A DNA stretch of 48,751 nt from Legionella sp. (GTDB taxonomy: Bacteria > Pseudomonadota > Gammaproteobacteria > Legionellales > Legionellaceae). The DNA lies in assembly GCA_027437055.1 (NCBI GenBank), contig DAIAOV010000001.1, positions 295 through 49,045 of the forward strand. Reading direction: 5' to 3'. The translations under genes were made by a program, and so were the position numbers. A model generated the notes under the pieces. The model searched no databases and had not been told where the DNA came from. It worked only from the letters and a program-made list of their open reading frames with translations. This document shows, in pieces, positions 1,978-10,973 of the stretch. Numbering within the stretch: the stretch's first letter is position 1; every line of letters begins with the position of its first letter.

Positions 1978-4665
1978 ATGAAGCTGTTGGAAATATTGGG
2001 AATTCATGAAACTAGTTTTAAAGATGATGAAACGTTATTTACACAGATAAAAAAATCCTATAAAAAGCTAGCATTCACGTACCATCCAGATAGAACTAAT
2101 GGCGACGAACAGTTAGAAGCGCGTTTTAAAATGATATCAGAGATCTACGCGGTATTGTCAGATTCTAAATATCGAAAATATTACATAGATCATCATGCTC
2201 AACTCGATACTTATTTTCAAGAAGATAAATACTCAGATTTTCTAACACAACACATTAAAGGTGCAATAGTAGATACCGATAAAGTGAATCTTAATGCAGC
2301 GCTAAATATTTACACAGAACAATTAACGTACTTCTCTTATAATCAGTCCGGACTAAATCATATTCTATTAGCTATTGATGCAGCCAAAAAATCTAATACC
2401 AATAATCCTTTTTATCCCCCTATTCAACACCTGTCACATGAAGCAAAAGCTCAATACCTCCTCTTCATAGAAGGAAGAAAAGAGGAAATAGATATGGCCT
2501 TTGAAAGAGCTAAAAAAGTATTTTCTAGTCAAAATATTCAGCACGATCACCTCGGTTTGAAGCGTATTAATGACTTAATGAACCAATTACAGCGTAATGA
2601 TCATAATAATGTACCTAAGGATTTATTTGAAGGTATAGAGGAGAGTCGGTACCAGGACTATATTATTGCTTATTATGATGTGTTAAGTCTCCATAGAAAC
2701 CACATTGATTTTTTATATCATAGGGCTCAGTCTGTAGTTTCCCGACAACCCTATGAATACACGTTGCAGAGCATAGTACAACTCGGTAATCTAATAACTC
2801 AAATAAATGAAGGTAATTATGCAGGGATCCCTCAAGAATTATTTGTAGACGTTGATGAGAGTTCAAAAGCCTCCTTAACTCGTACTTATTTAGAGTGTTT
2901 AACCCTTCATAGAGATCAAATCGCATTCGTTTTCCAACGAGCAGAAGAAGTAATTAAGCAACAGAATTTTCTATGCAATCAGAAGAGTCTTGCCATCGTC
3001 AATGGTACAATAACCCAGATAACTCAAGGTAATTCTTTAGTGCTCCCGCCACAATTATTTGCAAATGTTGACGACAACTTTAAGGCTCCTTTACAGCATG
3101 CTTATTTAAATTGCTTAATCGGCTATAAGAATCATATCGAATTTACTTATAGCAGAGCACAGGCTGTAATTGACCGCCAAAATTTTCGATATGATCAACA
3201 CAGTTTGGAAATCATTAATCAACAAATAACTGAGATATCTCAGGGTAATCGTCGCCTTGTTCCTCAAGATCTATTTCTAAATGTACATGAAAACAATAGA
3301 GATGACTTAGTTTTTGTTTATGTTTCTATATTAGATCAGTATAAAACGCAGATCGAACAGCAACTTTTAGAAGAAAACCGACAGCGTTTAGAATTATTAC
3401 GCAAGGAACAAGAAGAGAAACAACGCATTGAAACACAACAACGTCTGTTGCAAGAACAACGCCATAATGCTGAAGTTTTGATTAACGATTGCATAGAACA
3501 AATAAACAAATTCCCTGTGTCGATTCCTGAGACTACAAGTATTGAGAGCATTCAAAAACAACGAACAAAATTATTGCAACAACTATCCGCTATAACACAA
3601 GGACAACAAAATTTGGCAGCAGCAATAAATATTCTGCATGCCAATGGTACATCTCCTGAAATAACTCATGCCATTGATACGAAAACAGAAGAAATTAATT
3701 TAGCAACAAAAAAAGCTGAAGAGATGTTACGCCTACGTGAAGAGCAAAAGATTTTGGCGGAACAACGCCGACAGGAAGAGCTAAATCGTAAACAAGAAGA
3801 ACATCAACGCTTGGAGGAACAGCGCGGTATCGCTGAAGTTGTGATTAACATCTATGTAGACCAAATAAACAAACTCCCTGTATCGATTCTTAAGACGACT
3901 AGCATTGAGACTATTCGACAACAACAAACAGAGTTATTGCAACAACTAACCGCTATAACACAGGATCAACCGGATTTGGCAGAAGCAATAAATATTCTGC
4001 ATGCCAATGGTAAATCTCCTAAAATAACTCGTGCCATTAATACGAAAACAGAAGAAATTAATTTAGCGACAAAAGAATCTGAAGAGATATTACGCCTACG
4101 TGAAGAGCAGAAGATTTTGGCAGAACAACGCCGACAGGAAGAACTAAACCGTAAACAAGATGAGCATCAACGTTTGGATGCACTACGCAAAGCACAAGAA
4201 AAACAAGACTTAGAGGCATCGTATAAAGAGCAACAACGTAAACGATTTATACGATTAGAAGAGAAAAAAATTGACAATATCCTTGATAATCTAGCACAAA
4301 GAGTTGGCGGTATTGATCAGCATCATTTTGACGAAGCTCGAGAAACTGCTGAAAATTTATTAAATGCATTACAAAAAGCCAAGATTGACTATCTAAATAA
4401 TCTTGATAATTTAGATACGAACATTGAGGATGCAAATGAAGACTTTAAGCAAATATGTAAAACCCTAATCGATGGAGCAAGATCAGTTCTAGAAAGAGAT
4501 TTGGGTTGGGGCAGTTATCTAACTAATCTATGCAAAACGCTTGGTAATGTACTTATTTTGGTAACTACCTTTGGCCAAGTAAATAACTTCTTTAAACTCG
4601 AACGAGCTGAATCAATAAGAGCAGCTGAGGAAGCAGAACTACAGTTAAATCCGGTGGCTATCTAA
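1978..4665 (+). CDS. Large J-domain, coiled-coil repeat protein; Dot/Icm effector candidate
   Basis: An 895-residue protein. Residues 1-70 form a J domain with the HPD motif at 36-38 (YHPDR) and the later helix SEIYAVLSDSKYRKYY, so it should stimulate an Hsp70 ATPase. Residues about 172-462 contain four diverged helical repeats of about 73 residues, each with a core like QGN..VPQ.LF..V. A 121-residue unit is then tandemly duplicated (363 bp at DNA level, from about 3430 and about 3793), rich in Glu, Gln and Arg and probably coiled coil. A moderately hydrophobic segment follows (LGNVLILVTTFGQV), then a Glu-rich tail (RAAEEAELQLNPVAI) resembling the E-block of Dot/Icm substrates. A PmrA-type box precedes the gene. 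Secretion is inferred; the J domain is clear. No cysteine-rich zinc domain is present, so it is not a canonical DnaJ. Confidence 0.8.
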   Translation: MKLLEILGIHETSFKDDETLFTQIKKSYKKLAFTYHPDRTNGDEQLEARFKMISEIYAVLSDSKYRKYYIDHHAQLDTYFQEDKYSDFLTQHIKGAIVDTDKVNLNAALNIYTEQLTYFSYNQSGLNHILLAIDAAKKSNTNNPFYPPIQHLSHEAKAQYLLFIEGRKEEIDMAFERAKKVFSSQNIQHDHLGLKRINDLMNQLQRNDHNNVPKDLFEGIEESRYQDYIIAYYDVLSLHRNHIDFLYHRAQSVVSRQPYEYTLQSIVQLGNLITQINEGNYAGIPQELFVDVDESSKASLTRTYLECLTLHRDQIAFVFQRAEEVIKQQNFLCNQKSLAIVNGTITQITQGNSLVLPPQLFANVDDNFKAPLQHAYLNCLIGYKNHIEFTYSRAQAVIDRQNFRYDQHSLEIINQQITEISQGNRRLVPQDLFLNVHENNRDDLVFVYVSILDQYKTQIEQQLLEENRQRLELLRKEQEEKQRIETQQRLLQEQRHNAEVLINDCIEQINKFPVSIPETTSIESIQKQRTKLLQQLSAITQGQQNLAAAINILHANGTSPEITHAIDTKTEEINLATKKAEEMLRLREEQKILAEQRRQEELNRKQEEHQRLEEQRGIAEVVINIYVDQINKLPVSILKTTSIETIRQQQTELLQQLTAITQDQPDLAEAINILHANGKSPKITRAINTKTEEINLATKESEEILRLREEQKILAEQRRQEELNRKQDEHQRLDALRKAQEKQDLEASYKEQQRKRFIRLEEKKIDNILDNLAQRVGGIDQHHFDEARETAENLLNALQKAKIDYLNNLDNLDTNIEDANEDFKQICKTLIDGARSVLERDLGWGSYLTNLCKTLGNVLILVTTFGQVNNFFKLERAESIRAAEEAELQLNPVAI
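3430..4157 (+). repeat. In-frame 363-bp tandem duplication inside the J-domain gene
   Basis: Two adjacent copies with a 363-bp period. GCTGAAGTT lies at 3469 and again at 3832, and GAAGAGCA followed by AAGATTTTGGC lies at 3739 and again at 4102. Each copy codes for 121 residues, with shared blocks such as AINILHANG and LREEQKILAEQRRQEELNRK. The closeness of the copies suggests a recent unequal crossover. Confidence 0.85.
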
Positions 4666-4732
4666 TAACTAATAATGAGCCAACGCATTATAACCAGAAG
4701 TATTTTCATACTAAAATAATGTATGGTTAGTA

Positions 4733-4877
4733 ACTGTTCACGTAATGTCATCAACTGAAGCTGCGCGATCCAATCGCGCGTCAGCAAGCGGGTGTAACCC
4801 AAGTCAACATCCGCTCCCTAATGATCTCGGATTGTTCCCGCGGTTATTGAGAAGTCTTCAGTTGACGCCATTACGTT
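4733..4877. repeat. Dispersed palindromic repeat, copy A (complete)
   Basis: The outer arms 4741-4760 (CGTAATGTCATCAACTGAAG) and 4856-4875 pair at 18 of 20 positions. The right part (GTTATTGAGAAGTC) recurs in copy D. The element abuts the stop codon of the dehydrogenase and could act as its transcript end. Confidence 0.75.
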
Positions 4878-5757
4878 ATAATTTGATAAACTCTTTGATA
4901 TTTTTTATTGCTAATTGTCCTTTGGTTCTAAGAGCCTCCTGAGTATTAAAACCAATATGAGGTGTTGCAATGAGATTAGGTGCCTGAAAAAGACTATAGT
5001 CTTCAGGTAATGGCGGCTCCATATCAAACACATCCAACGCAGCCCCTGCAATCAAACGTTGCTCTAGCGCTAGTTTTAGATCTCCATTAACTACTATAGG
5101 TCCTCTGGCACAATTAATTAAGTAAGCAGACTTTTTCATTTGCGATAAAAGTTTTAAGTTGACCATTCCTTTCGTTTCACTAGTGAGAGGGACATGCAAT
5201 GTAATAAAATCAGATTGAGAAAATAAGCCCTCCAGTGTCAGTGAGCCACTTCTATCATAAATGAGAGTCTTCATTTGAAATGCATTAGCAATTCTTTTGA
5301 CCTCAGAGCCTATAGCACCAAAACCAACAATACCTAATGTTTTATTTTTTAATTCAATACCGGTATTGGTTACTGCTTTTTGTCGAATATTCTGGTTATT
5401 GCGAGGAATATCGCGCGCTAGAGAAATCATAAAGCCAAATACCAACTCAGCTACTGCTGTATTCGCGTAGCCAGCGGCGTTTTTCACGAGAATATGTCTC
5501 AGGTGTACAGCATCAGCATTAATATGGTCAATTCCAGAGAAGGCAACAGCGATAAATTTTAATGCTGTTGCAGCGTTAATCACTGCTGCTGATAGCGGTC
5601 TATTAGTAAGCGCAATAATATCAGCATCTTTTATATGCTCAATAAGTTGCTCATCAGACCAATTACGACTATCACACTCGGTAATTGTATACCCTGATAA
5701 TTCAGATCTGATTTCTTCGCTACTAAGGCCTATTGGTTCAATGATAGCTATTTTCAT
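4876..5757 (-). CDS. NAD-dependent D-2-hydroxyacid dehydrogenase family protein
   Basis: A 293-residue protein. It has the full pattern of the D-2-hydroxyacid dehydrogenase family: a substrate-binding half (KFIAVAFSGIDHIN), the Rossmann motif LGIVGFGAIGSEVKRIA, the catalytic Arg in NCARGPIV, a Glu in DMEPPLP and the catalytic His in ATPHIGFNTQEA. It would reversibly reduce a 2-keto acid to a D-2-hydroxy acid with NADH; the substrate is not evident. At 293 residues it is somewhat shorter than the 310-330 usual for lactate, glycerate or phosphoglycerate enzymes, mainly at the N-terminus. It stands alone on the minus strand, with a palindromic repeat touching its stop codon. Pyridoxal-related (PdxB) or SerA roles are less likely because no C-terminal domains are present. 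Confidence 0.87.
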   Translation of the reverse strand: MKIAIIEPIGLSSEEIRSELSGYTITECDSRNWSDEQLIEHIKDADIIALTNRPLSAAVINAATALKFIAVAFSGIDHINADAVHLRHILVKNAAGYANTAVAELVFGFMISLARDIPRNNQNIRQKAVTNTGIELKNKTLGIVGFGAIGSEVKRIANAFQMKTLIYDRSGSLTLEGLFSQSDFITLHVPLTSETKGMVNLKLLSQMKKSAYLINCARGPIVVNGDLKLALEQRLIAGAALDVFDMEPPLPEDYSLFQAPNLIATPHIGFNTQEALRTKGQLAIKNIKEFIKL

Positions 5758-5843
5758 TTTTAATCCCTTAATCTAATCCAAAGTAATCTTGTATATTAGC
5801 CTATTACGTTATCTTTTCTACCCCGCCATCTCTGTTGTCATTA

Positions 5844-5857
5844 TAAGAAATTTCTTA
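5844..5857. promoter_or_regulatory. LetA-type binding palindrome upstream of sRNA copy 2
   Basis: TAAGAAATTTCTTA is a perfect 14-bp palindrome matching TNAGAAATTTCTNA. Its right end lies 46 bp before the predicted -10 at 5904, a plausible activator distance. Confidence 0.78.
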
Positions 5858-5902
5858 CCCAAGTTTGGAGTAATATCGCTATAGGTTATTTTTTCGGCTT
5901 TG

Positions 5903-5909
5903 CTATACT
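5903..5909 (+). promoter_or_regulatory. Predicted -10 element of sRNA copy 2
   Basis: CTATACT, preceded by TG, matches both the extended sigma-70 -10 and the RpoS-preferred CTAxxxT form. No good -35 is visible, as is common where an activator and RpoS drive transcription. Confidence 0.5.
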
Positions 5910-5914
5910 GAAAT

Positions 5915-6055
5915 CAGAGTAAAGACAATGGATGTTTTAAAAGGACTTTCGTCTAGGTATCAAGGAGGATACCCGCCACAAGGATGTGGATGATTACTCA
6001 AGCAATGGACTTCGGACTCATCTGAAAAGGATGAGTCGCCCCTTCTTCTCGTTAA
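5915..6055 (+). ncRNA. Predicted RsmY/RsmZ-type CsrA-sequestering sRNA (copy 2)
   Basis: About 140 nt follow the LetA box and the -10. Perfect hairpins expose GGA in their loops: GGTATC-AAGGAG-GATACC (5956-5973), CCACA-AGGA-TGTGG (5976-5989) and GACTCATC-TGAAAAG-GATGAGTC (6015-6037, with GGA at the loop edge). More GGA motifs lie in AAAAGGACTTTCG (5939 on) and AATGGACTTCGGA (6004 on). The last hairpin is followed by CGCCCCTTCTTCTCGTT, a weak U-rich tail, so the 3' end is approximate. In Legionella such RNAs are induced by LetA at entry into the transmissive phase and relieve CsrA repression of effector mRNAs. A short ORF starting at 5928 (about 21 codons) is judged fortuitous. Confidence 0.82.
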
Positions 6056-6060
6056 GCTAT

Positions 6061-6440
6061 TCCATCAAAATCTTATTTAATCCGTTCATTTTTTAAAACA
6101 CTAGGTCAAAAGAGAATTTACCTAGAAAACTCTCGTATTTTAGCAAATAACCAGAGTGTATTCACAGAGTTATCCACAGAAAATGGGGATAAGTTAGTCG
6201 CTGTCGCGAAATGATTTAGGCAATCTTAAGGAATAAAAATTTGAAAGAAATTTTTGATTCTGCATCGTCAAAAAAGTATCATGATTCGCAATAGATTTTC
6301 AATAGCCAATAACAGAAAGGATGGTAGAGCAGAGAATGATTTATCCATTAGATATCAAAAATAGATTGGTTGCGAAAAATAAAGATATGAGCATTGTCAG
6401 CAATACCAATGGGGTGTTGTTTAACTTATGTTGCATAAGG
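6061..6440. other. Intergenic region before the accessory islet
   Basis: No gene was recognised. It contains a perfect DnaA-box nonamer TTATCCACA at 6170-6178 with a reverse partial copy (GGGGATAAG) just after it. Other content is AT-rich sequence without clear coding or repeats. A diffuse half-palindrome AAGAAATTT lies near 6245. Confidence 0.4.
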
Positions 6441-6450
6441 GATGAATGTT

Positions 6451-7239
6451 ATGAAAATGATTCAATGGATTAAAAATAATGTGCTGATGGTTTTATTGTT
6501 GACCATCACAACACTATCTTATGCGGGTTCGCCCGTATGGACGCTCACACCCTTGACGGCAACCACCCTATCGGTTGCCTCGAATGACACGGCGACGGTT
6601 CAATATACTGTCACGAACCAATCAAGCAGAATACATACCTTGAGTATGCAATCGATAGCAGGGATTACGCAACTCACCACAGGGTTAGGTATTTGCGGCA
6701 ATCCGTTTATCCTGAGGGGGCATGCGTCTTGTACGTTATCGTTGCAAGTGAATGGCAGTCAGTTAACTTCCCCAATTAATGATGGGCCAATCGTATGTGA
6801 ACAAAGTTCAAGTTCGCAATGCTATCGTCCTGCATCAAGTGATATTCTTCATATTACGCAAGCATCAGCAATAACGGATGCAACGATAACCGTAACAGGC
6901 TCGCCGCTGACACTAACGACGAATGGCTCTACCGGAACATTAACGATTAATAATACATCATTAATTGTTGCAGCAACCAATATCACATCTGAATCAGGCA
7001 ATACCTGTTACAATGACTGGTTTTTGCCTGCTGGAGGTAATAATAGTTCCACGGGACAATTGAATTGTCTTTTTATGAATAAAACCGCCATTGGTGGTTT
7101 CAACTCCGCTGCTTACTGGGGTTCTACCGAGATCAATAGTAGCTCCGCGTGGTTCGAGAGTTTCTCTGGCGGTGGTCAGGGTTCTAGCCTCAAGAACAGT
7201 CAGGACTATTTTCGATGTGTGCGGACTTTTACCCCTTAA
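6451..7239 (+). CDS. Secreted DUF1566 (C-type-lectin-like) protein; likely diversity-generating retroelement target
   Basis: The 262-residue reading from ATG 6451 has an AAGGG ribosome site 9 bp upstream; ATG 6442 is possible. A signal peptide (MVLLLTITTLSYA) is followed by an Ig-like repeat region with a Thr-rich core (TATVQYTVTNQSSR, SCTLSLQVNGSQL) known from Legionella surface proteins. The C-terminus is a DUF1566 lectin fold: NDWFLPAGGNN, IGGFNSAAYWGSTE and a terminal FRCVRTF. The segment from about 7096 to 7210 has the layout of a DGR variable region: YW.STE..S..AW...F..G.....K....FRCVR, where the variable residues carry codons (TCC, GGC, TTC, ATC, AGT, GGT) reachable from AAC or AAT by changing only A. 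An avd-like gene follows directly. Function is probably ligand binding at the cell surface. Confidence 0.75.
   Translation: MKMIQWIKNNVLMVLLLTITTLSYAGSPVWTLTPLTATTLSVASNDTATVQYTVTNQSSRIHTLSMQSIAGITQLTTGLGICGNPFILRGHASCTLSLQVNGSQLTSPINDGPIVCEQSSSSQCYRPASSDILHITQASAITDATITVTGSPLTLTTNGSTGTLTINNTSLIVAATNITSESGNTCYNDWFLPAGGNNSSTGQLNCLFMNKTAIGGFNSAAYWGSTEINSSSAWFESFSGGGQGSSLKNSQDYFRCVRTFTP
7096..7225 (+). other. Candidate DGR variable region with downstream IMH-like segment
   Basis: This is the stretch coding for the YWGSTE...RCVRTF part of the lectin domain. Codons at the exposed positions look like adenine-mutagenised AAY codons, while scaffold codons (TAC TGG, ACC GAG, GCG TGG, TGT GTG CGG) are conserved. 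No template repeat was found elsewhere in the window, so the assignment rests on pattern and context. Confidence 0.55.
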
Positions 7240-7295
7240 ATCCTTTAGCTCTTTTGTTTCAGGCTGCGTAGCGGCCCATGATTTTTGAGAACAGC

Positions 7296-7496
7296 ATGGC
7301 ACTTTATACTGATTTACCCCTTTATCGCGACACGTACCAACTGATTTTAAAAGTGTTTGAGTATAGTGAGGAATTTTCAAAGGAATATAAATACATTTTA
7401 GGTCAGGATATGAAGTGCGATGCGCTGCGATTAGTACGAGGCATTTATCGTGCCAATAAAATGACCAATCGAAATGAGCATCTAGCCATTTTTTAG
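7296..7496 (+). pseudogene. Truncated Avd-like DGR accessory protein
   Basis: The visible product, MALYTDLPLYRDTYQLILKV..., continues with FSKEYKYILGQDMK and LVRGIYRANK. This is the characteristic first part of bacterial Avd proteins, the four-helix-bundle accessory factor (S23-like) that binds reverse transcriptase and template RNA in diversity-generating retroelements. Family members are usually about 110-125 residues; this one stops after 66, within a T-run at 7490-7496. Another frame continues LDEKDALFRSK for a few residues and then loses resemblance, so the last two helices are missing. The start was set at ATG 7296; ATG 7278 is in frame but adds residues not typical of the family. It lies 56 bp behind the DUF1566 gene, as expected for a DGR cassette. 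Confidence 0.72.
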
Positions 7497-7588
7497 ATGA
7501 AAAAGATGCTTTGTTTAGATCAAAACTGAGCAGTGACTCCAACAAATTGGTTCCAAAACAAAAAACAATACGATGACTTGAGCGTACA

Positions 7589-8611
7589 ATGAGTTTAGAT
7601 GTAGATGGATTTTCAAATGAGATTGAGGGTGGCGAGGTAACGATTAAAATCAACTCAGACCATCGATTGCTGAAATTAGCACGTAATCTTCCTTGGGATG
7701 AGATGCTGGATATTATTTTGCCAGATTTAAAATGCACCGAAAGAAAATGCTGGTGGATGGGACGCCCCATGCAGGTGCGTATTCATTTGGGTGTTTATAT
7801 TTTACAGCAAATGTTCGACTTAACCGACCGTGTGGTTGAACAGCAAGTACGTGATAACGCTGCTTTTGGTTTATTTTGTGGATATGGGTTGTTAAAAAAA
7901 TGGCATGCACCAGACCATACTAAAATTGAAGCATTTCGGTCTCGATTGACAGCGGAAACGCAGCGCAAGCTAGCGAATATGATGAGTCAGCAAGCGGTGA
8001 AGCTAGGCTATGCAAATCCAACGACGCTTGATATTGACTCGACTGTACAAGAGGCTAATATCGCTTATCCCGCTATTCCTAACTTATTGGTTAAAATTGC
8101 TATTCTTGCATCACGGGTTGGAAAAAAGCTTAAGCAATTGTGTCGTCATGGTGCAAAGCAATATCACGTTGGATTAACTAACCTAAAACAGATCGCGCTT
8201 TATTATTTTAATCTCAAGCGAAAGGATGTTGGGAAAGGAATTTTGTCGGTTGTGCTTCAGCGCTTGTGGCAAGAGACGTACACTGATGTGTTACCTATTT
8301 TGAATGATTTGTATTTGTTTGGTGATAAATTAGCGTTGGGCAAACAGTGGTCGCTTCGACGCGCGGTTGAGACTTTGAGTTGGCGCGGGGCCATGCTGCT
8401 TCAGAATCTACATGCTATATTTTTGAAGGCATTACCCGCGGTAGTCAATACCCATGAGCAATTGTTTGGTAAAGGTTTTTTAGCATCTATCAGGAAGTCC
8501 TTCGCTACGCTCTGGACGACGGTTGTTTTTTGTACAAATCATTACGCGACAGCGACAAGTTATAGTCTATGGAGCAGCGGATATAAAGTTATAAAGTCAC
8601 ATAGGATATGA
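7589..8611 (+). pseudogene. Truncated DDE transposase (DUF772-type N-terminus)
   Basis: The 340-residue reading frame starts like an intact transposase: WDEMLDIILPDLK, WWMGRPMQVRIHLGVYIL, then a DUF772 domain (FCGYGLLKKWHAPDHTKIE) and the first catalytic Asp region TTLDIDSTVQEANIAYP at about residue 150. The rest should carry the second Asp and the Glu over roughly 100-150 more residues. Instead, after about residue 300 the frame turns into ASIRKSFATLWTTVVFC..., which looks non-native, while the neighbouring frame reads SIYQEVLRYALDDGCFLY and stops. The element therefore seems broken and immobile. It directly follows the truncated avd gene and may have removed the rest of the retroelement. 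It resembles the ISNCY/IS1182-like elements of Legionella; exact family not determined. No convincing terminal inverted repeats were found. Confidence 0.75.
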
Positions 8612-8954
8612 TGTTTTGAAAAAATTAATTAAAAAATGGAGTGCTAGCTGTACTAGGGCAGAAAAGGATATCCACAGAGAGAATACTGATACGTAAAATC
8701 ACGCAATTTATCATCATAACAAAGAAAATAATAAAAAAACAGTCTTGACGAAGTGGTTTTTTATTTTTTACTCACATCTATGAAAACTATGATTAAATTA
8801 TATTTATCTACTTGCTATAATACTTTAGGCAGATGGTGTAAAATCCACAAAAATTATTTTCTAGTAGGCCTTAATAAAATTAAGACAAATTGCCTCTTGA
8901 TTATGCCATTAGATATGGTAGTTTATTCACGAGAGAATGTTTCAGAGTATAACT
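8612..8954. other. Non-coding stretch after the transposase remnant
   Basis: An AT-rich region with no supported gene. Short frames at 8753-8980 lack family features. GGATATCCACAGAGAGAATACTG at 8667-8689 faintly recalls the TTATCCACAGA sequence at 6170, on the other side of the islet, but not closely enough to call a boundary repeat. Confidence 0.35.
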
Positions 8955-9314
8955 ATGAACCAACAAGTCAATGCGGTTAAGAAAGATAAGCTTCAAATTA
9001 TAGACTGGCTTATTGAACATTTCCCTGGTGCTTTTTTTAAGAAAAGCAATCAAGTAAAGCCTCTTAAAATTGGGATATTTGATGATATTATCGATTTTTA
9101 TGAACGCTTAGATACCCCTCCATTCAGTAAAAAGTCTCTTAGAGAAGCATTGAGCTACTATAGTGCATCGCCAGCTTATCTTAGCTGTCAAAAACCAAAT
9201 GCTGCTCGAGTAGACATTTATGGAAATGAGGTCGATGTAGTTACCCCAGAACAAGCAAAATATGCACATCAACGTTTCCAAGAACGATATGCAAAGAAAA
9301 AAAATCCAGTATGA
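8955..9314 (+). CDS. Minimal ProQ/FinO-family RNA-binding protein
   Basis: From ATG 8955 the product is 119 residues, almost entirely one ProQ/FinO domain: KLQIIDWLIEHFPGAFF, VKPLKIGIFDDI, SKKSLREALSYYSASPAYL, then AARVDIYGNEVDVVTPEQA. Proteins of this fold are RNA chaperones that bind the 3' stem-loops of sRNAs and mRNAs; in Legionella another family member (RocC) controls competence. This one lacks the N- and C-terminal extensions of E. coli ProQ, so it is a bare domain with a short Lys-rich tail (RYAKKKNPV). ATG 8937 is an in-frame alternative; 8955 was preferred because MNQQVN leads straight into the domain. It stands alone, with a repeat element behind it. Its RNA partners are unknown. 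Confidence 0.87.
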   Translation: MNQQVNAVKKDKLQIIDWLIEHFPGAFFKKSNQVKPLKIGIFDDIIDFYERLDTPPFSKKSLREALSYYSASPAYLSCQKPNAARVDIYGNEVDVVTPEQAKYAHQRFQERYAKKKNPV

Positions 9315-9400
9315 TTTGCTGCCCCTAGCCGTCAGGCTAAAGAGTAATTGTTGAGTCGTTTCGACCCAATCTTCGTACTGTCAGCTGTGGGCGATTAATA

Positions 9401-9555
9401 ACGCCAACTTAAGCTTTTGTAACGTAGGTCGGGCTCTTTGGCCCGCAAAATGTTCTCTTTATGGGCAAGATACCCCCTTAAAATGTACCAATTGATGTTG
9501 GGCCAAAGGGCCCGACCTACATCTTAAGTTGGTGCCATTGCGTGAACGCTTACAG
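9401..9555. repeat. Dispersed palindromic repeat, copy B with nested inverted repeat
   Basis: The outer arms ACGCCAACTTAAG (9401-9413) and CTTAAGTTGGTGCC (9523-9536) share the core of copies A, C and E. Nested inside is a second inverted repeat, GTAGGTCGGGCTCTTTGGCCC (9424-9444) against 9500-9520, with one mismatch. The element lies between convergent genes. Confidence 0.75.
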
Positions 9556-9571
9556 ATTTTGGAAAATCTAG

Positions 9572-10264
9572 TCATCGTAATGCTAACAAATAATTAATTG
9601 ACACATCAGAACTTAACGAAGTAGTTCTGAAAATAGGATTATAATCCATTCCTTTCATATCAAGCAGATGCAAGTTAAATGAACGAGCCATAGCAACCAG
9701 CTCACTAGGTTGAATAAATTTCTGATAATCGTGTGTCTGTTTCGGTAAAAGATTTAAAATATATTCAGCAGCAACAATAACACTTGCATAAGCCTTCATT
9801 GTCCTATTAATAGTTGACAAAAATAATATGCCTTTGGATTTTAGTAAGCGTTTGCAATGCTTTAAAACCAATTCTGGATTTTGTACATGTTCAAGCATTT
9901 CCATACAGGTAATAACGTTAAACTTTTGGCTTTCAAATTCTTCTATTGGAGAACAGTGATAATCAATAGAAAGCTGGTTGTCTCTTGCATGTTGCTGTGC
10001 TACTTGAATCGCATCTTGCTCAGCATCCAAACCAGTAACTATTGCTCCTGCCTTGGCCATAGCTTCACATAAAATACCACCACCGCAACCGACATCTAAT
10101 ACCCTTACATCCTGTAAATTAACGTGATTGGTAATAAATTCTAGACGAGCATTATTTATATCATGCAGTGTTTTTAAAGGGCCTTCCTTATCCCACCATT
10201 CTTTTGCATGCTGAGCAAACTTAGATACTTCCTGAACATCAACAGTTGATTCAATATTTTTCAT
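9572..10264 (-). CDS. ubiG: Ubiquinone biosynthesis O-methyltransferase UbiG
   Basis: A 230-residue class I methyltransferase. The start MKNIESTVDVQEVSKFAQHA and the following EWWDKEGPLKTLHDIN block are typical of UbiG. SAM-binding motif I reads VLDVGCGGGILCEAMAKAG, and ITCMEMLEHV matches the post-I motifs. UbiG performs both O-methylations of the ubiquinone ring, using S-adenosylmethionine, at the inner membrane as part of the Ubi complex. An upstream in-frame ATG (10297) would add 11 residues that do not fit the family, so 10264 was chosen. The gene overlaps the 3' end of the upstream glycosylase-like gene by 14 bp, suggesting translational coupling. Length is close to E. coli UbiG (240). 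Confidence 0.93.
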   Translation of the reverse strand: MKNIESTVDVQEVSKFAQHAKEWWDKEGPLKTLHDINNARLEFITNHVNLQDVRVLDVGCGGGILCEAMAKAGAIVTGLDAEQDAIQVAQQHARDNQLSIDYHCSPIEEFESQKFNVITCMEMLEHVQNPELVLKHCKRLLKSKGILFLSTINRTMKAYASVIVAAEYILNLLPKQTHDYQKFIQPSELVAMARSFNLHLLDMKGMDYNPIFRTTSLSSDVSINYLLALR

Positions 10265-10973
10265 ATGCAAGTAGATCCATGGGTTTAAAAAATGCAATAA
10301 CGTGCTTATTGGTAATAAAGCTTACATTATACGGGTGTTCAGCGACTAGACCAACGGTTAATTTATTCTGCGAAACATGCTTTGCAATGTTACCTAACAA
10401 TATTAACTGTATTGAAGATTTAATCTGAGCTAATTGTGCAAAGAGGCTATTGATAAAAGGTTTCCAATGTCGTGCATGATATGAAACTTTTCCTTTACTA
10501 TAAACCAATGAGGCATTAAGTAATAAAACACCTCGTCGCATCATGTTTATAAAGAGTTGCTCGGCACTATGAATTAGTGTTGATTTATCAATCTGAGCAA
10601 TAGCTTGTTGCGTAACCTTTGTCTGCAAATCGCCTCGAGCAACTAACAACATTTTAATCAGATTCCGTAAAGAGGTTGCTTTGTTTACAGCGGTACTTAA
10701 ACCATGTGGACTCCATAGCTCTCCTACCGCGTTATCCCAAAAAGCGTAGCCATTAGCGGATAGGTTCCGGGGATAAGGAGATTCACCGACAAGGATATAG
10801 TGTGTTTGAGAAAGAGGTAAACTAAACGCTGCAAATAGATAACGCAATCCAGGCAGCCAATGACAGTCCTCTGACAATTCTTGGAGATAATTAGGCTCCA
10901 TCGATTGCAAAGCGGTCTTAACTAGGGTAGTCCATTCAGGATGACAAGCATTAATACTCTCTTCAAGTGTCAC
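10251..10973 (-). CDS. Uracil-DNA-glycosylase-like protein with altered active-site motifs
   Basis: A 240-residue protein with the layout of family-1 uracil-DNA glycosylase. The water-activating motif GQDPYH appears as GESPYP, and the next segment NGYAFWDN matches the GLAFS region. RGVLLLNASLVYSKGKVSYH matches the LLLN..LT......SH block, and the C-terminal HPSPLS-type motif is reduced to AEHPYNVSF. The catalytic Asp of GQDPYH is therefore Ser here, so removal of uracil by the usual mechanism is doubtful. It may be a diverged repair or decoy protein or an inactive paralogue. It is transcribed with ubiG, which it overlaps. A second, canonical ung elsewhere in the genome would be expected. Fold call fair; activity not supported. 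Confidence 0.7.
   Translation of the reverse strand: MTLEESINACHPEWTTLVKTALQSMEPNYLQELSEDCHWLPGLRYLFAAFSLPLSQTHYILVGESPYPRNLSANGYAFWDNAVGELWSPHGLSTAVNKATSLRNLIKMLLVARGDLQTKVTQQAIAQIDKSTLIHSAEQLFINMMRRGVLLLNASLVYSKGKVSYHARHWKPFINSLFAQLAQIKSSIQLILLGNIAKHVSQNKLTVGLVAEHPYNVSFITNKHVIAFFKPMDLLAYEKY

Follow-up and report, generated by a model that had tools for sequence, protein, structure and literature searches.

A probable transposon relic with diversity-generating retroelement cargo in Legionella sp.

Closest described systems

Diversity-generating retroelements (DGRs) of the BPP-1 type combine a lectin-type target, an Avd protein, an adenine-biased pair of template repeat (TR) and variable region (VR), and a reverse transcriptase (RT) with IGNxTSQ and YVDD motifs. 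L. pneumophila reportedly carries a DGR, described by Arambula in 2013. In Vibrio RC586 and Shewanella pSbal02, DGRs were found near Tn7-type sequences or a transposase/integrase gene, and DGRs hitchhiking with transposons as well as DGRs with broken RTs have been described (PMC3521204). Transposon-degraded DGRs are on record from Thiohalocapsa PB-PSB1 (PMC10907252) and dispersed RT-less DGR targets from cyanobacteria (PMC7517822). Here we analyze a 48,751-nucleotide stretch of Legionella sp. DNA (the window), in which positions 6197-8556 (2.36 kb) most probably represent a copy of a Legionellaceae transposon with DGR cargo, internally deleted and no longer autonomous, a reading to which we assign a probability of roughly 90%.

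Intact relatives of this element share all of the BPP-1 features named above, but their cassette is enclosed as cargo by transposon ends and comes with a transposase of its own, and the window copy differs further in being without TR, RT, and half of avd. A tie between DGR and mobile element is common to Vibrio RC586, Shewanella pSbal02, and the present locus; in the first two the relation is one of vicinity (PMC3521204), whereas here end repeats, duplications, an empty site, and an RT-linked transposase (14 of 19 loci) define one element. Thiohalocapsa PB-PSB1 likewise has DGR loci devoid of RT or TR and repeats like those of miniature inverted-repeat transposable elements, but there repeats matching remote insertion sequence (IS) elements replace DGR parts, whereas the deletions seen here lie inside the DGR's own transposon (PMC10907252). 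IS5/ISNCY-like (DUF772) insertion sequences have terminal inverted repeats (TIRs) and, according to NCBIfam and Pfam, a related transposase; the NCBIfam scores are below cut-off, however, and the elements discussed here are 6.2-6.9 kb long with DGR cargo and 6-bp duplications. In the paper on the L. antarctica genome insertion sequences are counted, and a word search of its main text gave neither "retroelement" nor "reverse transcriptase" (PMC8528123). Our literature searches found no description of a DGR within a defined transposon, which we do not take to mean that none is in print.

Ends and remains of the window copy

The host assembly (G000; 3.5 Mb, 290 contigs, 88% complete) is of the same genus as L. 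antarctica, which has five copies of the element (L092, L093, L110, L111, and L112). Loci are given L-numbers and genomes G-numbers, W stands for the window copy, and genus-wide counts are over 45 genomes. The window element is flanked by a gene at 4876-5757 on the left and a ProQ-like gene at 8937-9314 on the right, and has the following features.

6170..6192, no strand: palindrome TTATCCACAGAAAATGGGGATAA just outside the element, a pre-existing insertion target (0 expected in 100 shuffles) that G008 shares at its empty site
6191..6196, no strand: left target-site duplication AAGTTA, identical to the 6 bp at 8557-8562, single copy in the empty site
6197..6218, plus strand: left TIR, differing at one base from the 22-bp repeat in intact elements, its 21-nt arm pairing with the right end at 95% complementarity
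6219..6359, plus strand: conserved left subterminal segment, matching L088, L092, L096, L100, and L219 by blastn
6442..7239, plus strand: shortened DGR target of 265 aa with a signal-type N-terminus (by eye), one repeat domain, and a partial Lcl_C lectin-type domain
6959..6995, plus strand: region with the target's internal deletion junction, about 732 bp being gone relative to L100
7096..7225, plus strand: former VR, aligned to the TRs of relatives, with coordinates taken from an earlier, sequence-only reading of this DNA
7262..7276, plus strand: imperfect hairpin after the VR (read by eye), at the position of the hairpin in intact relatives
7296..7496, plus strand: avd, N-terminal part only, with homology up to 7493 followed by TAG, and profile matches
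7529..7576, plus strand: tail of the RT gene, SSDSNKLVPKQKTIR, with stop TGA, matching the RT C-termini of relatives just upstream of the transposase
7589..8611, plus strand: IS5/ISNCY-like (DUF772) transposase, broken by two internal deletions, conserved C-terminal part gone, open reading frame (ORF) overrunning the right end
8535..8556, minus strand: right TIR, one mismatch to the 22-bp repeat
8557..8562, no strand: right target-site duplication AAGTTA, matching the left copy

Of the marks of a TIR transposon with DDE transposase, terminal inverted repeats and a target-site duplication are both present. The two TIRs are the window's only two such repeats with at most three mismatches (0 in 100 shuffles), and those of the L. 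antarctica element, also 22 bp long, are perfect. The corresponding intergenic region of G008 (L181) is about 80% identical and lacks the element; a lone AAGTTA adjoins the same palindrome there. On account of this empty site, a conserved chromosomal DGR locus was rejected.

Duplications were surveyed at 21 loci, for which 15 end pairs were listed. Exact 6-bp duplications flank eight of these pairs, corresponding to seven elements (W, L088, L096, L100, L214, L215, and L219), while only 3 of 210 ordered pairs agree in a cross-row control (twice L096 against its own second row, once L216 against the window). The seven pairs without an exact duplication comprise one at a contig end and six from L. 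antarctica in which a group II intron adjoins one of the two ends. When the L. antarctica ends are read past this intron, the duplications match in three of five copies (L093, L111, and L112), and L092 and L110 each carry the other's partner, which suggests from the sequence an inversion between these two. The intron itself, 1886 bp long, lies 1 bp outside one end in all five copies, and in the same position at a short end-repeat pair in L110. Across the genus the end pattern is found in 14 of 45 genomes, against none of 45 for the reversed control.

Both in the window (6170-6192) and in the TIR flanks of other loci, the palindrome consists of two inverted TTATCCACA 9-mers. It stands beside 18 of 48 distinct non-intron element ends, compared with 61 of 20,000 random 36-mers. 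We take the 9-mer to resemble a DnaA box.

Between its ends, the window copy has lost about 945 bp after the 6219-6359 segment (relative to L088, where this stretch holds an outer-membrane-protein-like gene), the 732 bp in the target, 1.57-1.62 kb from mid-avd to the last RT codons (relative to L217, L211, and L214), and, compared with L092, two stretches of about 170 and 420 bp in the transposase and behind it. Added to the remaining 2,360 bp, these losses give about 6.2 kb, the size of an intact element.

The sequence-only reading had described the locus as a decayed DGR consisting of a lectin target and a truncated Avd without TR or RT, and had placed an Avd-like N-terminal half 56 bp after the target. 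Both statements agree with our results, as the avd ATG at 7296 is 56 bp past the target stop and the Avd profiles proposed as a check all match: PHROG 3206 "Avd protein of DGR" (E 5.6e-11), Pfam bAvd (E 2.8e-6, 28.2 bits, cut-off 40), and NF033474 (E 5.2e-6, 26.7 bits, cut-off 80). To judge from these matches the Avd half is real, though the scores are below the curated cut-offs. The protein is not complete, the NF033474 match covering profile positions 1-57 of 104 only. The Avd fragment had no match at 1e-5 in plasmids and phages and none in PDB up to E 0.1.

No DGR-type RT beyond the tail at 7529-7576 and no TR paired with the VR is found in the window copy. The loss of the diversifying machinery, also part of the earlier description, can now be attributed to the deletion of about 1.6 kb that left this tail. 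Searches of the host assembly for TR and RT, likewise proposed there, found neither: the RVT_1 profile had no match (the same search matched 3 of 14 control genomes), nor did the L. antarctica DGR RT as query (a search without positive control), the VR as DNA query matches only itself above chance, and the template of a relative yielded nothing beyond pieces of 14-32 bases (E 0.29 or worse). Because the assembly is 88% complete and in 290 contigs, RT and TR are likely, rather than proven, to be absent from the host strain. Pfam 23S_rRNA_IVP had no match in the same genome, but this profile matched nowhere and is uninformative. As a unit, the decayed cassette of the earlier account stands as a DGR relic, but the larger unit is the internally deleted transposon 6197-8556; the inverted repeats, target-site duplication, RT tail, linked transposase, and internal target deletion all go beyond that account.

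The transposase ORF of the window copy (7589-8611) shares 64% identity with the L. antarctica transposase and, with the conserved C-terminal part gone, is not an intact enzyme that would make the copy autonomous. Its catalytic residues were judged by eye. The intact transposase scores 47.3 bits against Pfam DUF772 (cut-off 23.1) but remains below the NCBIfam cut-offs for IS5_1 (144.9 bits, cut-off 275) and ISNCY_1 (106.9 bits, cut-off 325), and is hence assigned to neither the IS5 nor the ISNCY family by curated score. The window copy is a relic, and its interest lies in the element it reveals.

Intact relatives and multiple copies

Intact elements of 6.2-6.9 kb occur in other Legionellaceae, where the same ends enclose target, Avd, TR, RT, and transposase in the order (outer-membrane-protein-like gene)-target-avd-TR-RT-transposase. 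Among the transposase loci, the first of these genes is present in L088, L092, L093, L096, and L219 (broken), with no match in L214-L217. The transposase is found in 8 of 45 genus genomes at E 1e-20 and Avd in 9 of 45; RVT_1 matches in 26 of 45, many of them not DGR RTs. A named scan gave 10 transposase loci, including L. tunisiensis, L. maceachernii, Legionella sp. km772, and Legionellaceae metagenome-assembled genomes, and full-length or near-full-length transposase frames are seen in the five L. antarctica copies, G013, and G007. The linkage to the RT was assessed at 21 transposase loci, two of which, with only two upstream bases, were set aside; 14 of the remaining 19 have a DGR RT no more than 300 bases from the transposase.

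All seven RTs examined beside Avd in intact relatives contain IGxxxSQ and YxDD motifs. Their TR/VR pairs differ almost only at template adenines, with 11-22 mismatches at A and 0-4 elsewhere in 12 of 12 framed pairs, which is the pattern that the sequence-only reading had expected of homologues. The pairs of L216 and L219 are outside these 12 and were adenine-biased in a separate comparison. The VR of L097 (G024; 371-516) contains many N, which are ambiguous or withheld bases; 19 of these face an A of the template.

The template is identical in all five L. antarctica copies. L092 and L111 differ at 22 positions in 6308 bp, all in the VR at template adenines, and L092 and L110 at 22 over 6204 bp, likewise in the VR; between L092 and L112 there are two substitutions, both at template adenines of the VR, plus 28 gap positions. 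L093, compared in the VR only, has 2 or 22 differences from the other copies, all at template adenines, and an insertion inside avd. Since the copies compared are near-identical except at these adenines, their sequences indicate that they have moved recently and that they changed by substitution only with a DGR signature. This is an indirect pointer to mutagenic retrohoming in the L. antarctica elements.

Elements with the end repeats and the target, in genomes without Avd or RVT_1 matches, are L100 (G044) and L221 (G036). The VR of L100 (7100 copy) is fresh: of the template positions in G028 (km772), 20 of the 38 A and 2 of the 82 others are mismatched. By eye, L221 contains an extra ORF resembling another transposase. 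In G024, L098 (L114) is a second target-avd cassette with no RT or TR match in the downstream sequence fetched; its VR fits the template of L097, a complete DGR with RT in the same genome, with 4 of 87 non-A mismatches and is likewise fresh, which makes L098 a candidate for diversification in trans.

Fate of the target and competing explanations

The deleted-transposon reading is founded on the TIRs, the 6-bp duplication, the empty site, the ends and gene order shared with relatives, the Avd half and RT tail flanking a deletion, and the transposase devoid of its conserved C-terminal part. The target it leaves behind has a C-terminus that matches Lcl_C/DUF1566 (E 8.3e-5, 23.3 bits, under the curated cut-off of 34.9; profile 31-117 of 117) and the adhesin_Lcl C-terminus (E 5.5e-7, 28.5 bits, cut-off 500); in PDB, HbP1 is the sole match of the lectin part (E 5.7e-4). 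The intact relatives L092 and L219 match Lcl_C at profile positions 26-117 and 27-117, likewise under cut-off, and because even their matches start there, a loss of the front of the lectin domain can be claimed only softly. About 244 codons of the window target are gone, from behind its first repeat domain up to the W-LPA motif in the lectin-type domain, and therefore a working protein encoded by it is doubtful.

This bears on the idea of the sequence-only reading that one variant of a surface protein was frozen, and on the possibility that the machinery was lost after a good variant had arisen and that the lectin has since been kept by selection. The ORF is still open despite the loss of about 732 bp, L100 and L221 show that ends and target without RT or Avd occur elsewhere, the fresh L100 among them, and loss after an optimum has been proposed for cyanobacteria (PMC7517822). 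The missing codons, however, lie directly before the W-LPA motif, and transposase and avd are ruined too, so that we regard a frozen useful lectin as unlikely.

According to the sequence-only reading, the variable codons of the target are consistent with A-only changes of AAY codons. Compared with the TRs of 14 relatives, the window VR keeps the third-base Y in 9-12 of the 10-12 aligned AAY codons, and relative to the template with most non-A identity, picked from the 14, its mismatches fall on 22 of 37 template A and 20 of 74 non-A positions (Fisher p 0.001). The lean toward adenines has p < 0.05 for 9 of the 14 templates (weakest p 0.12), several of which are near-identical, so that the 14 tests are not independent. 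The NNY pattern and the adenine lean are thus upheld, but the changes are not confined to A. With a lectin-type C-terminus and adenine-derived variable codons the gene qualifies as a DGR target, albeit with a sub-cut-off Lcl_C match and a moderate adenine excess; a moderate excess is what one expects when no cognate template is at hand. Nor does the window VR stand out among target homologues, which gave p 0.01 (L100, 4100 copy), 0.004 (L105), and 0.07 (L095) in the same comparison, from which L143, which could not be framed, was excluded.

Continued diversification of the target in trans, by a DGR in a chromosome gap or on a plasmid, would be compatible with the incomplete assembly and has a possible parallel in the L098 cassette of G024. 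We consider it very unlikely, because the searches of the assembly revealed neither RT nor TR; moreover, the window VR differs from each of the 14 templates at 20-35 non-A positions, compared with 0-4 for VRs with their own template. Also very unlikely is a chromosomal DGR that decayed in place while an unrelated insertion sequence inserted next to it, truncating avd. Cases of DGRs disrupted by insertion elements are on record (PMC3521204) and the transposase resembles those of IS5/ISNCY, but the inverted repeats enclose target, avd, and transposase, with the 6-bp duplication outside all three, the same transposase follows the RT in 14 of 19 loci, an RT tail lies between avd and transposase, and the G008 site is without the whole block. 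An unrelated insertion sequence beside a decayed DGR was rejected because the inverted repeats enclose both.

Several observations weigh against the deleted-transposon reading. Transposition itself was not observed and is deduced from ends and copies, and the empty site comes from one relative, L181 (G008) being the only one of 29 ProQ loci alignable on the left flank. No matching duplication accompanies the end pair of L221 (G036). An adjacent RT is absent at five of the 19 transposase loci, namely the window (tail only), L132 (45-46% identical and close to a contig edge), L133 and L134 (both fragments), and L218. The VR departs from its best template at the 20 of 74 non-A positions given above, a similar adenine excess occurs in homologues from genomes without Avd (L101, p 0.03; L102, p 0.001), and the homologues L103 and L104 have none (p 0.26 and 0.53). 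A third end repeat in the host genome, L220 (contig C94, 2796-2817), stands alone beside a nonribosomal peptide synthetase-like gene (by eye). The surroundings of L220 match the left end of the G028 DGR element (L091) with 92% identity over 287 bp.

Two further features were noted near the element. Just upstream of it, a conserved intergenic stretch (5930-6060) contains several GGA motifs and is preceded by TTATAAGAAATTTCTTAC; Rfam gave no match up to E 0.5 on window 4500-10500, this stretch included. The stretch resembles a CsrA-binding small RNA of the RsmY/RsmZ type. Downstream of the ProQ-like gene, an inverted pair AGGTCGGGCTCTTTGGCCCGC / GGGCCAAAGGGCCCGACCTACA at 9425-9535 looks like a repetitive extragenic palindromic element by eye.

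In the intact element, the IS5/ISNCY-like transposase would move the block as a whole, and the new site would often border a TTATCCACA...TGTGGATAA palindrome. Once inserted there, Avd, RT, and template would rewrite the adenine-derived codons of the element's own lectin gene, and the copies would become different lectins. The window copy would have inserted between the gene at 4876-5757 and the ProQ-like gene and then have lost about 0.95, 0.73, 1.6, 0.17, and 0.42 kb, losses that would have ended both diversification and self-mobility and left one old lectin variant.

It is reasonably likely that the Legionellaceae harbor a self-diversifying transposon, in which a mostly DGR-RT-linked transposase carries an entire DGR to new places in the genome and to replicons of plasmid size, with every copy mutating only its own lectin, such that a family of different surface lectins may grow and deleted copies such as that in the window leave fixed variants behind. 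The spread of DGRs has so far been argued from neighboring transposases, whereas here the DGR itself appears to be the transposed unit, as judged from ends, duplications, empty site, and near-identical copies. The five L. antarctica copies represent a natural experiment on diversification versus transposition within one genome, and the window relic illustrates how such elements may decay into machinery-less lectin genes that could otherwise be mistaken for orphan adhesin-like genes.
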